A stretch of DNA of 64,000 bases, taken from contig JAFUXG010000005.1 in assembly GCA_017470935.1 (NCBI GenBank), forward strand, positions 1 to 64,000. Reading direction: 5' to 3'. Below the pieces are notes generated by a model. The model made no database searches. It was not told the origin of the DNA and saw only the letters and a program-made list of their open reading frames with translations. This document shows positions 1 through 64,000 of the stretch, in pieces (positions within the stretch are counted from its first letter, which is position 1; every line of letters starts with the position of its first letter). The position numbers and the translations under genes are program-made. The DNA is from Lachnospiraceae bacterium (GTDB lineage: Bacteria; Bacillota; Clostridia; Lachnospirales; Lachnospiraceae).

Positions 1-138
1 TAAGCACCTTGCCACGGACAGTACCAAAGTCTATCCGGGACATCTAGAAGTTCTTATCCCGTCCAATCCGCCACCTGACCTGAGGGTATCTGTGCAAGGC
101 AGACGGCGTACGGTTTCAAAATTTAACTAAACAGTAAT
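1..138. repeat. Partial copy of dispersed foldback element, right arm
   Basis: Positions 4-134 are identical over 131 bases to 62635-62765. The copy ends in the terminal motif CTAAACAGTAAT and touches the tyrS stop codon at 139-141. Only the right arm is inside the window; the rest lies to the left of base 1. The first bases (TAA before GCACCTTGCC) differ from the other copy and match that copy's centre read in reverse complement, so the central loop may be inverted here. No open reading frame is seen in it. It may work as an RNA hairpin behind tyrS or be a non-autonomous mobile element; neither is proven. Confidence 0.75.
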
Positions 139-59885: not shown

Positions 59886-61178
59886 TTACACACGGAAAAG
59901 CTCTGCCACCTTATCTTCCTTCAGCTCACTTCCGATCACACAAAGCTTACCGGTAACATCCGGCTGGCCATCTCTAACCTCATACTCCTCCGGTGTAAGA
60001 TCAAAGTATATCCATCCGCCCTCAGAATTAGGAACCATACCCTTTGCACGAAGAATGATACCATACTCCTTGCTCTCCTCTGAATCCGCAAGCTTCTTAA
60101 GAATATCCTCGATCTCCTGCTTTGTATATTTATTCGGAGTCTCCTTGCCCCAGCTGGTAAACACATCATCTGCATGATGATGGTGGTGATGGTGGTCATG
60201 ATCGTGGTCATGATGGTGATGATGCTCATCGTGGTCGTGGTGATGCTCATGCTCGTCATGGTCGTGGTGGTGCTCATGCTCGTCATGGTCATGATGGTGA
60301 TGATGCTCATCGTGGTCGTGGTGGTGCTCATGCTCGTCATGGTCGTGGTGGTGCTCATGCTCGTCATGATCGTGGTCATGATGCTCATGCTCGTCATGGT
60401 CGTGGTGATGCTCATGCTCGTCATGATCGTGGTCATGATGCTCATGCTCGTCATGATCGTGGTGATGATGCTCATGCTCGTCATGGTCATGATGATGGTC
60501 GTGGTCACATTCCTCTCCATCCTCATGTACATGTCCACATTCAGGACATACCTTAGCCTCCTCCATAAGCTGCTCAACTAAGGACTTCTCACCCTCCATT
60601 GCCGATACGATCTGCTTACCGTCAATATCATCCCAAGGAGTAGTAATGATCGTTGCCTTATCATTATGCTCCTTAAGCATTGATACAACTGCATTTAACT
60701 TATCCTCATTAAGATTTTGACTGCGGCTAAGAATTATTGTTCCCGCACTCTCCACCTGATTGTTAAAGAACTCGCCAAAATTCTTCATATACATCTTGCA
60801 TTTACCTGCATCAACTACAGTGGATGCGGAATTAATCTCAATGTCTGCCTCATGAAGATCAGCAACCGCCTTCATTACATCAGAAAGCTTTCCCACACCT
60901 GATGGCTCAATGATAATTCTGTCAGGTGTATAATCATGAAGCACCTGCTCTAATGCCTTGCCGAAATCACCCACAAGGGAACAGCAGATACAGCCTGAAT
61001 TCATCTCATTTATCTGAACTCCTGCATCCTTTAAAAAACCTCCGTCTATTCCAATCTCTCCAAACTCATTCTCAATAAGCACAAGCTTCTCTCCAGAAAA
61101 GCCTTCTGCTATAAGCTTCTTAATAAGGGTTGTCTTTCCTGCACCCAAGAATCCTGAAATAATATCAATTTTTGTCAT
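59886..61178 (-). CDS. CobW-family G3E GTPase with long His-rich metal-binding region
   Basis: 430 residues. P-loop GFLGAGKT is at 9-16 and the CobW metal site GCICC at 62-66. A CPEC motif at 211-214 leads into a His/Asp/Glu tandem-repeat region (about 217-340). A CobW C-terminal domain closes the protein (about 345-430). The usual NKxD is replaced by SRSQN. CobW/ZNG1-type proteins insert metals such as zinc into clients, using GTP. The His region could store or buffer Zn, Ni or Co. A promoter with a palindrome (61229-61274) lies upstream. GGAGGAAT precedes the ATG. Confidence 0.93.
   Translation of the reverse strand: MTKIDIISGFLGAGKTTLIKKLIAEGFSGEKLVLIENEFGEIGIDGGFLKDAGVQINEMNSGCICCSLVGDFGKALEQVLHDYTPDRIIIEPSGVGKLSDVMKAVADLHEADIEINSASTVVDAGKCKMYMKNFGEFFNNQVESAGTIILSRSQNLNEDKLNAVVSMLKEHNDKATIITTPWDDIDGKQIVSAMEGEKSLVEQLMEEAKVCPECGHVHEDGEECDHDHHHDHDEHEHHHHDHDEHEHHDHDHDEHEHHHDHDEHEHHDHDHDEHEHHHDHDEHEHHHDHDEHHHHHDHDEHEHHHDHDEHEHHHDHDEHHHHHDHDHDHHHHHHHADDVFTSWGKETPNKYTKQEIEDILKKLADSEESKEYGIILRAKGMVPNSEGGWIYFDLTPEEYEVRDGQPDVTGKLCVIGSELKEDKVAELFRV
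60172..60530. repeat. Tandem repeats coding for the His-rich region
   Basis: About ten degenerate units of 27-30 bases, each coding for HDHDEHEHH-like peptides on the minus strand (DEH occurs ten times). Units differ mainly at synonymous positions and in length by one His codon, which indicates repeat expansion and contraction. Length may vary between strains or in assemblies. Confidence 0.9.
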
Positions 61179-61355: not shown

Positions 61356-62447
61356 CTATTGTGAATCCAGCACCTTGTCGATCGTCGCCCCTCCTGCAAC
61401 AGCATCTCCATCATAAAACACAATAGCCTGTCCCGGCGTTATTGCCCTTACGGGCTCATCAAATGTGCATTTAACCTCATCCTTACTGATCATTTCAACA
61501 GTGCATGGTGCGCCCTTATGAGAATAACGTATCTTCGCATTAACTCGTGTTGGTCTGTCAAATGCTTCTAAGGACATATAATTAACCCTTGATGCAGTCA
61601 GTTCTTTATGAAATGTTTCCTCATTATCTCCTATCACCACCTCATTAGTATCAGGCCGTATTGCCAGAACAAATACCGGTCTTCCCATAGGAAGATTAAG
61701 GCCCTTTCTTTGTCCTATTGTATAATGGATAATACCCTTATGCCTTCCAAGAATATTTCCATTAACATCAACAAAATTACCCTCTGGGAATTTCCTTCCC
61801 AATTCATTCTCAATATATTTTGCGTAATCATTATCAGGAATAAAGCATATCTCCTGACTGTCAGGCTTATGTGCAGTTATAAGACCTGCATTTTCTGCAA
61901 TACTGCGCACCTCATCCTTTTCATATTCCCCTACAGGCATCAGGGTTCTTGAAAGCTGCTCCTGTGTCAGATTGTATAGTGCATAGGTCTGATCCTTCTT
62001 ATCAGTCTTAGACTTACATACCGCATATCTGCCATTATCAAGCCTTACAACCCTTGCGTAGTGACCTGTGGCTATATGATCACAGCCTATGGCAACAGCC
62101 CTGTCAAGGAGTGCCTCCCATTTCACATATCGATTACATGCGATACATGGGTTTGGTGTCCGTGCATGCATATATTCATCCATGAAGTAATCTATAACAT
62201 TCTCCTTGAATTCCCTCCTGAAATTCATAACATAATGCGGTATCCCAATCACATCCGCAACACGCCTTGCATCATCCACGGCAGAAAGTCCACAGCACCC
62301 GCCATTTTCAGCTATATCCTCCGGTGCCTCATCCTGCCATATCTGCATGGTAACGCCTATTACATCATATCCCTGTTCCTTCAAAAGATAGGCTGCCACC
62401 GACGAATCCACTCCACCGGACATGCCTACCGCCACCTTCTTACTCAT
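61356..62447 (-). CDS. mnmA: tRNA-specific 2-thiouridylase MnmA
   Basis: 363 residues from ATG 62447, which has AAGGAG seven bases upstream; the ATG at 62453 is too close to it. PP-loop SGGVDSS at 10-16; catalytic cysteines in NPCIAC (Cys101) and SQEICF (about 197). It thiolates U34 of tRNA-Glu, -Gln and -Lys with sulfur from the cysteine desulfurase encoded upstream. The foldback repeat lies in the gap between the two genes. Confidence 0.97.
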   Translation of the reverse strand: MSKKVAVGMSGGVDSSVAAYLLKEQGYDVIGVTMQIWQDEAPEDIAENGGCCGLSAVDDARRVADVIGIPHYVMNFRREFKENVIDYFMDEYMHARTPNPCIACNRYVKWEALLDRAVAIGCDHIATGHYARVVRLDNGRYAVCKSKTDKKDQTYALYNLTQEQLSRTLMPVGEYEKDEVRSIAENAGLITAHKPDSQEICFIPDNDYAKYIENELGRKFPEGNFVDVNGNILGRHKGIIHYTIGQRKGLNLPMGRPVFVLAIRPDTNEVVIGDNEETFHKELTASRVNYMSLEAFDRPTRVNAKIRYSHKGAPCTVEMISKDEVKCTFDEPVRAITPGQAIVFYDGDAVAGGATIDKVLDSQ

Positions 62448-62469
62448 GTGCATTCTCCTTCTTCACTAT

Positions 62470-62769
62470 ATTACTGTTTAGTGAATTTTTGTTTTTGTAT
62501 CACGTACGCAGGTAAACTGACAGCATGGTGCGTTTTATATGACTTTCTGTACGGTGATAAGAGTTTCTAAGTATCCCGTATAAGCTTTGATTACGTACGC
62601 GGCAAGGTGCTTAGTCGCCATCCATGGCTCCGGCGCACCTTGCCACGGACAGTACCAAAGTCTATCCGGGACATCTAGAAGTTCTTATCCCGTCCAATCC
62701 GCCACCTGACCTGAGGGTATCTGTGCAAGGCAGACGGCGTACGGTTTCAAAATTTAACTAAACAGCAAT
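62470..62769. repeat. 300-bp imperfect palindrome (foldback, MITE-like element)
   Basis: The ends are inverted copies: ATTACTGTTTAG at 62470-62481 and CTAAACAGCAAT at 62758-62769; over 18 bases inward from CTG they match at 16. The arms (about 140 bases each) are related along most of their length, including GGCAAGGTGC (62602-62611) and GCACCTTGCC (62635-62644), with a small palindrome at the centre. No coding frame. The right end abuts the cysteine desulfurase stop; the left end is 22 bases from the mnmA start. 131 bases recur at 4-134. Nothing else is seen in this gap apart from the mnmA ribosome site. Confidence 0.85.
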
Positions 62770-63996
62770 CTACCTGCGTCCCACAAAGTCCTCATACTGA
62801 GGCGACATGGCGCGCAGCCTGCCCACATATTCCTTGATCTTTTCAACAACATAATCTATTTCTTCCATGGTGTTTTCATCCCCCAGGGTCATGCGCAGGG
62901 AGCCATGGGCAATATCCTCCGGAAGTCCTAAGGCTGTCAGCACATGAGAGGGGGATGTGGAGCCAGATGTGCAGGCAGATCCGGCAGAAGCACATATCCC
63001 AGCCATATCAAGCATTATGAGCATTGACTCACCCTCCACAAACTGAAAGCTGATATTAACATTGTTAGGAAGCCTTTTGGTGCGATGACCATTAAGGCGT
63101 GCATAAGGAACCTCAGAAAGTATTCTGTCAATAAGATGATCCCTCATCATTATTTCCTTCCTGCCTCTTTCCTTCATTGTATCAAATGCCATCTCACAAG
63201 CCTTGGAAAGACCAACAATGCCGGGAACATTCTCAGTTCCCGCCCGCCTTCCACGTTCCTGGGCTCCGCCGTGTATAAAGCTTCCTATCTTAAGATTATT
63301 ACGGATATATAAAAAACCTATTCCCTTAGGACCGTTTAACTTGTGGCCGCTGGCTGATAACAGGTCAATATGATATTCATCCACATCTATAGGTATCTGC
63401 CCATAGGCTTGAACTGCATCAGTGTGGAATATGATATTATTCTCATGTGCCAGCTCGCCGATCTCCTTAATGGGCTCAACGGTTCCAATCTCATTGTTGG
63501 CAAACATGACAGAAATAAGAATAGTATCAGGCCTTATTGCCTTCCTTAGAACATCAAGCTTAACGATTCCATTTTCATCAACATCAATATATGTAACGTC
63601 AAAGCCCATCCTCTCAAGATATTCACAGGTATGCAACACAGCGTGGTGCTCAATCCTTGTGGTAATAATATGCCTGCCTGTTCTATATTTATTTTTCACA
63701 TCCGATATATTTTCTTCAATATCGTGAATGTTATTATCACTATAATATGCATCACACACTGCCTTGATTGCCCAGTTATCAGCCTCCGAGCCACCGGCTG
63801 TGAAATATATCTCATTTGCTTCAGCATTTAATGTCTTAGCAATAGCTTCTCTGCACTGTGTCACCTTTGCCCTGTTTTTTTGTGAAATAGAATAAACACT
63901 TGATGGATTCCCAAATTCATTGGTGAAATACGGTAGCATTGCCTCCACCACCTCAGGCCTGGTGGCTGTGGTGGCTGCATGATCCATATAGATCAA
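62770..63996 (-). CDS. Cysteine desulfurase (IscS/NifS), start possibly beyond window
   Basis: At least 408 residues. PLP-dependent aminotransferase fold with DHAATT at the start, His117/118, PLP-binding Lys219 in SGHKLNGPKG and active-site Cys342 in SACTSGSTSPS. It releases sulfur from cysteine for Fe-S clusters and for MnmA, encoded next. The first codon in the window is TTG (63996) without a visible ribosome site, and the frame is open to base 64000, so the true start may be to the right. An extra segment (about 84-107) is inserted relative to short IscS proteins. Confidence 0.93.
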   Translation of the reverse strand: MIYMDHAATTATRPEVVEAMLPYFTNEFGNPSSVYSISQKNRAKVTQCREAIAKTLNAEANEIYFTAGGSEADNWAIKAVCDAYYSDNNIHDIEENISDVKNKYRTGRHIITTRIEHHAVLHTCEYLERMGFDVTYIDVDENGIVKLDVLRKAIRPDTILISVMFANNEIGTVEPIKEIGELAHENNIIFHTDAVQAYGQIPIDVDEYHIDLLSASGHKLNGPKGIGFLYIRNNLKIGSFIHGGAQERGRRAGTENVPGIVGLSKACEMAFDTMKERGRKEIMMRDHLIDRILSEVPYARLNGHRTKRLPNNVNISFQFVEGESMLIMLDMAGICASAGSACTSGSTSPSHVLTALGLPEDIAHGSLRMTLGDENTMEEIDYVVEKIKEYVGRLRAMSPQYEDFVGRR

Positions 63997-64000
63997 TGGT

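Follow-up and report, generated by a model that had tools for sequence, protein, structure and literature searches.

The 300-bp foldback sequence between the cysteine desulfurase and mnmA genes of the window (the whole stretch of 64,000 nucleotides analysed from this Lachnospiraceae bacterium) is, in our judgement, likely to be a shortened copy of a palindromic mobile repeat that is dispersed and non-autonomous and whose copies are probable ligands of CsrA. The best reading is that of a REPIN/MITE-like repeat with predicted transcripts that would display paired CsrA sites. The arms of the repeat are a catalogued RNA family, their pairing is DNA-like, and they show a strong statistical tie to csrA.

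A preliminary description of the locus had proposed a foldback palindrome with inverted ends, and such an element, with 13-bp terminal inverted repeats, is indeed present (Table 1). Its outer inverted arms (62467-62491/62748-62772) are 84% complementary, and imperfect inverted arms of 71% complementarity were confirmed further inside (62556-62621/62624-62689). The central stem also proved as described, with GGCAAGGTGC (62601-62610) pairing with GCACCTTGCC (62635-62644); its core is GCCATCCATGGC, and GCC-ATCCAT-GGC (62617-62628) forms a smaller palindrome within it. The arms are imperfect complements as had been claimed, but they turned out to represent the outer left and outer right halves of a longer parent. 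Since these outer halves are joined at the hairpin, the window copy is best read as an internal-deletion derivative. A second copy in the window exists as well, but only as a half broken off by the contig start. When folded as RNA, both strands of the element are far more stable than shuffled sequences, in line with the earlier expectation: the plus strand reaches -107 kcal/mol (z -5.7) and the minus strand -119 kcal/mol (z -9.2), and 0 of 200 shuffles folded as well on either strand. No ORF of at least 60 aa lies wholly inside the element, which agrees with the reported lack of a coding frame, and a coding function was set aside. The right edge adjoins the cysteine desulfurase stop codon as stated before, and about 7 nt separate the left edge from the presumed ribosome-binding site of mnmA, so that both neighbouring genes look intact. 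Elsewhere in the window, positions 59886-61178 of the minus strand encode a protein of the CobW family (PF02492) that contains a very long and possibly metal-binding stretch rich in His, Asp and Glu.

Table 1. Features of the window element and its surroundings (positions in the window).
Feature	Position	Strand	Remark
Whole element, 300 bp, probably derived from a longer parent by internal deletion	62470..62769	.	
Left terminal inverted repeat ATTACTGTTTAGT	62470..62482	+	common to 20 left and 13 right ends among those listed, some with single-base changes
Right terminal inverted repeat ACTAAACAGCAAT (ATTGCTGTTTAGT on the minus strand)	62757..62769	-	
Outer left half-arm	62470..62640	+	aligns to the left arm of other copies (positions 71-241 of the 421-base query)
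Outer right half-arm	62617..62769	+	aligns to the right arm of other copies (positions 218-370 of the 421-base query)
Central stem including inner hairpin	62601..62644	.	minus-strand loop is ATGGAT
Degenerate full-length match to Rfam RF01731 (TwoAYGGAY)	62546..62699	-	36.1 bits, gathering cut-off 43
Cysteine desulfurase TAG stop	62770..62772	-	directly adjoins the element
Presumed mnmA ribosome-binding site AGAAGGAG	62455..62462	-	outside the element, by reading of the sequence
Right half of second window copy	1..138	+	broken off by the contig start; BLAST piece G000:C69:4-142

The host genome (G000; 77.75% complete, 75 contigs) yielded 71 BLAST pieces for a 421-base query, of which several may belong to one copy. 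Many of these pieces lie at contig ends, which is what one would see if the assembly broke at the repeats. Counts of the end motif TTRCTGTTTARTK were 60 in G000, 58 in G002 and 62 in G010, compared with 3, 5 and 2 occurrences of the reversed pattern used as a control, while the motif was nearly absent from G016 (1), G006, G021 and G004 (0 each). The exact ends are therefore common to only some of the relatives that bear RF01731. Among named records, a 25-base left-end pattern matched one, which is a Lachnospiraceae MAG obtained from the abomasum of roe deer. The proposal of a dispersed element is thus borne out by dozens of copies in the host genome, and the case of only two copies, named beforehand as an argument for a local structure, did not arise.

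Longer copies measure about 440-830 bp and carry one or two matches to RF01731 (TwoAYGGAY). Those with both ends span 655-656 bp in G000 (C18 and C2) and 529-829 bp in G002, with lengths of 441 and 567 bp in G010; most of them contain RF01731, and some contain it twice. At 18 of the 19 listed places in the host genome the match exceeds the gathering cut-off (43 bits); the window copy itself, at 36.1 bits, falls below it. Among the matches listed, RF01731 neighbours less than 1 kb apart comprised, by eye, at least 23 divergent, at least 2 tandem and 0 convergent pairs, and paired arms within one copy point outward. Each arm of one G002 copy (L118) is self-complementary, and its arms were not detected as mutual complements; in a G000 copy (L014), mutual complementarity of the two arms was detected. 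G111 and G292 have arms that lack these terminal repeats. Mini-palindromes of 36-51 bp that extend hardly beyond the two terminal repeats were also seen (L149 457-492, L156 788-823, L145 771-821, L143 3626-3665), one of them at an identical place in G002 and G010. In G292, a long near-perfect inverted repeat (L171 1464-1684) adjoins a TwoAYGGAY copy and is strong enough to give sub-threshold scores with plant miRNA models that are unrelated to it.

RF01731 was found in 11 of 26 congeners, with up to 25 matches. In Lachnospiraceae it was present in 45 of 299 genomes, 43 of them over the cut-off, with scoring limited to 9 candidates per genome; in the Clostridia sample it was present in 36 of 391 genomes, 27 of them over the cut-off, with a limit of 7. 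Genomes that bear it usually have several copies. Thirty of the 36 Clostridia positives lie outside Lachnospiraceae, in 11 other families.

TwoAYGGAY was proposed in 2014 as a CsrA-binding RNA (PMC4333381, available in part). The CsrA consensus is given as RUACARGGAUGU for E. coli and, for loops in C. jejuni, as (C/A)A(A/U)GGA in the accessible part of PMC6692469. Counting by alignment columns, we found GGA in both loops of 28 of 38 arms and in at least one loop of 36; it was missing from both loops in 2 arms and from at least one loop in 10. CANGGA occurred in at least one loop of 31 of the 38 arms, and the two arm loops are 27-31 nt apart. The column counts replaced a strict hexaloop count of 40 arms (two loops in 14, one in 10, none in 16), which misses bulged and five-base loops. 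Judged by sequence, the loops match the CsrA consensus of E. coli and C. jejuni, as worded in these partly available sources.

The csrA gene (PF02599) was detected in 44 of the 45 RF01731-positive Lachnospiraceae genomes (positives matched by eye) versus 110 of the 254 negative ones (P=1.7e-13, kinship ignored), and in 154 of 299 overall; G193 is the only positive without it. In the Clostridia sample, csrA accompanied RF01731 in 31 of 36 positives, the exceptions being G496, G537, G576, G594 (one family) and G636. Outside Lachnospiraceae, 25 of 30 positives carried it (17 of 21 when only those over the cut-off are counted) versus 86 of 345 negatives (111 of 375 overall; P=2.7e-10, again with kinship ignored). 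At the level of families, csrA occurred somewhere in 12 of 12 RF01731-positive families versus 37 of 86 families, the total that the test assumed (P=1.2e-5). The host genome itself encodes a CsrA ORF of 75 aa. In Clostridia, csrA tends to travel with flagellar genes, and motility and phylogeny remain confounders of the association. The loop sequences and the co-occurrence with csrA suggest that the copies probably act as CsrA ligands. The window copy, with one CsrA-type loop and a sub-threshold RF01731 match, is probably a passenger.

The pairing of the arms was analysed in an alignment of 38 arms from 38 genomes (loci L063 and L070 of the 40 arms were left out). Here, 38 of 40 pairs changed on both sides, and 89.4% of the cells pair versus 58.5% in shuffles. 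G-U pairs, counted in both orientations, were not commoner than A-C mismatches (31 and 34 cells; 28 versus 32 in variable pairs), whereas RNase P RNA from 30 Lachnospiraceae genomes, run through the same script as a control, gave 125 versus 3. Since selection at the RNA level should strongly favour G-U, the lack of a G-U excess argues that complementarity is kept at the DNA level. The reverse strand of the arms folds at least as well (consensus -47 versus -39 kcal/mol), and when read on that strand the arms hold 37 G-U and 28 A-C cells, while RNase P flips to 11 versus 61. In 14 arms from other families, consensus pairs comprised 5 G-U versus 7 A-C, and single folds contained 25 G-U among 797 pairs on the RNA strand versus 14 among 764 on the reverse strand, a weak RNA-like lean. 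The simplest reading is that the complementarity is maintained as DNA; alternatively, selection may act on RNA of both strands.

The same data bear on the possibility that TwoAYGGAY is primarily a gene family of CsrA-sequestering small RNAs, the equivalent in Clostridia of CsrB/RsmZ, which later multiplied and whose repeat-like spread is secondary. The strong covariation of arm pairs would suit such a family but comes without the G-U excess over A-C that RNase P displays. Similarly, the fit of the loops to the CsrA consensus (PMC4333381 and PMC6692469, each in part) and the co-occurrence with csrA are what it would predict, but the places of the copies are not conserved. In addition, predicted promoters are near chance in the elements L118 (2 versus 2.3 expected) and L014 (2 versus 0.7), none being clearly above it, and at eight single-arm loci of G292 the intact arm runs with or against the neighbouring genes according to no rule. 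We therefore regard a primary small RNA family as rather unlikely.

Insertion was studied by searching the joined flanks of 17 sites against 24 congeners. For six sites (L119, L128, L129, L131, L137, L151), both sides of the junction were matched in one or more relatives, and a seventh comparison was provided by G010:C17 (filled) and G021:C270 (empty). Good alignment across the junction was obtained for L137, L128 and G010:C17, and the joined flanks there have about the length of the empty site, which argues against a target duplication of 3 bp or more; the remaining junctions are too diverged to be read for this feature. Similarly, in 21 elements no k-mer match between the two flanks stood clearly above shuffles. 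The outer bases of 42 flanks favour TAAA, with TAA one base out in 13 versus 0.91 expected. Five of eight chosen elements have a facing stop codon no more than 1 nt away, versus 0.47 expected; these eight were picked from 19 after the gaps were known, and elements without a facing stop, without intergenic room or with an ORF entering the element were dropped. According to a simple ORF rule, the 38 of 40 elements with both neighbours stand between 23 tandem, 10 convergent and 5 divergent gene pairs. G010 and G002 share insertion places, which indicates that movement there is not recent, and at some of these places the flanks are exchanged, which points to recombination between copies. The flanks of two G002 copies (L118, L120) are joined to a single G010 copy (L230), and in G021 they lie side by side without a copy. 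Chromosomal rearrangements thus seem to occur at the copies (L230, L118, L120).

The preliminary description had offered a MITE or foldback element or a family of structured RNAs. The repeat is dispersed, apparently non-autonomous and matches a catalogued RNA family, but two features typical of MITEs did not turn up: no target duplication was seen where it could be read, and no transposase sharing the terminal repeats at the unpaired end motifs inspected. No autonomous copy was present among ten unpaired end motifs in nine loci of drafts that are fragmented at these repeats: two led into known arms of the element where the contig ends, one had only 23 shared bases and seven showed no arm similarity, their number being near that of the reversed-pattern control. 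The sole wide divergent pair (G047:C2) encloses two ORFs, one of them GNAT-like by eye. One G000 copy had no blastn-level match in phage and plasmid collections. If the repeat were a giant REPIN/BIME whose mover is a Y1 tyrosine transposase (RAYT), this would explain the paired inverted hairpins, the lack of target duplication and the place downstream of genes, all as described for REPs in the available parts of PMC3733652 and PMC3116915. However, the Y1 transposase (PF01797), found in 6 of the 11 bearing genomes searched, had no match in the other five (G000, G002, G010, G021 and G111, with G002, G010 and G111 being 99-100% complete). It is thus not required, and we set a RAYT-driven REPIN aside as highly improbable; the mover would rather be an enzyme acting in trans.

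At the window site, the element is absent in all seven relatives compared (L221-L227), and none of the congener RF01731 matches listed lies on their contigs. L222 has a nifU-like ORF (552-989) between the cysteine desulfurase and mnmA genes, L223-L226 have one at this site by eye or from spacing, and L221 (G006) and L227 (G016) have a short spacer. In the window (61356-63999), G006 and G016, the nifU-like gene is absent between the two genes. The earlier idea of a local regulatory hairpin, an attenuator or mRNA stability element between these genes, fits the strong fold on both strands and the co-directed flanking genes, but it has very little chance of being correct and the attenuator was set aside, given that the place is not conserved in the seven relatives, that the same repeat stands between other genes elsewhere and that no terminator-like site was found in the two parent elements scanned, L118 and L014, which are distinct from the window copy.

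For the dispersed mobile repeat, we propose the following mechanism. The parent is an element of about 440-830 bp bounded by terminal inverted repeats; inside it are one or two TwoAYGGAY hairpins, each a long stem topped by two small hairpins, with pairs pointing outward. Copies insert into AT-rich TAAA sites, often just behind a stop codon and with no target duplication where this is readable, and the enzyme that moves them would act in trans. The Watson-Crick stems may be kept at the DNA level by a hairpin-recognising enzyme or by palindrome correction during replication, and an arm, if transcribed, would display two CA(N)GGA loops at the 27-31 nt spacing, the form that the CsrA dimer binds. 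More speculatively, this selfish DNA palindrome could be a mobile CsrA decoy that persists in hosts with csrA by way of transcripts with paired CsrA sites, an extension that we offer only tentatively. If it were true, dozens of dispersed copies would tap into or buffer the CsrA network of the host, and what is catalogued as the 'RNA' family RF01731 would turn out to be one arm of a transposable element.

The analysis recasts a candidate RNA, listed in 2010 without an assigned function, as one arm of a repeat that is dispersed and that the Clostridia sample shows in 12 families, and it provides a genome-scale test of the 2014 proposal that TwoAYGGAY serves CsrA. In titles and abstracts, with few subscription journals, we found no description of TwoAYGGAY as a mobile repeat and no test of a link to csrA. 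If CsrA binding holds, a mobile element would be tied to a global post-transcriptional regulator. The comparison of G-U with A-C, together with an RNA control from the same genomes, can separate DNA palindromes from structured RNAs in RNA databases.

As in TwoAYGGAY (RF01731; Weinberg et al. 2010, PMC2864571, available in part), the arms of longer copies match the family over its full length above the gathering cut-off. Unlike TwoAYGGAY as catalogued in that part of the source, the arms belong to a dispersed repeat with its own ends and, unlike a structured RNA, they pair without a G-U excess, and the window copy falls below the cut-off. Inverted hairpin dimers (at least 23 divergent pairs among the matches listed), high copy number, a place mostly beside gene ends and the lack of target duplication are shared with REP, BIME and REPIN sequences as portrayed in the accessible parts of PMC3733652 and PMC3116915. 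In contrast to REPs, which measure 20-40 bp according to the same sources, the element is an order of magnitude longer, has terminal inverted repeats in this genus and occurs in five of 11 bearing genomes without a Y1 transposase; CGTC-type REPs likewise have no known transposase (PMC3733652, in part). Like a MITE, the element is short, non-coding and dispersed, with terminal inverted repeats and deletion derivatives down to 36-51 bp, but neither a target duplication nor a parent transposase was found here. The repeat thus resembles both REPINs and MITEs and departs from each in a defining feature. With CsrA-sequestering RNAs of the CsrB/RsmZ type it shares pairs of hairpins with A(N)GGA loops and hosts that carry csrA (44 of 45 and 31 of 36 positives); those RNAs are single genes, whereas the copies described here are dispersed repeats and, from their loop sequences, putative CsrA ligands.
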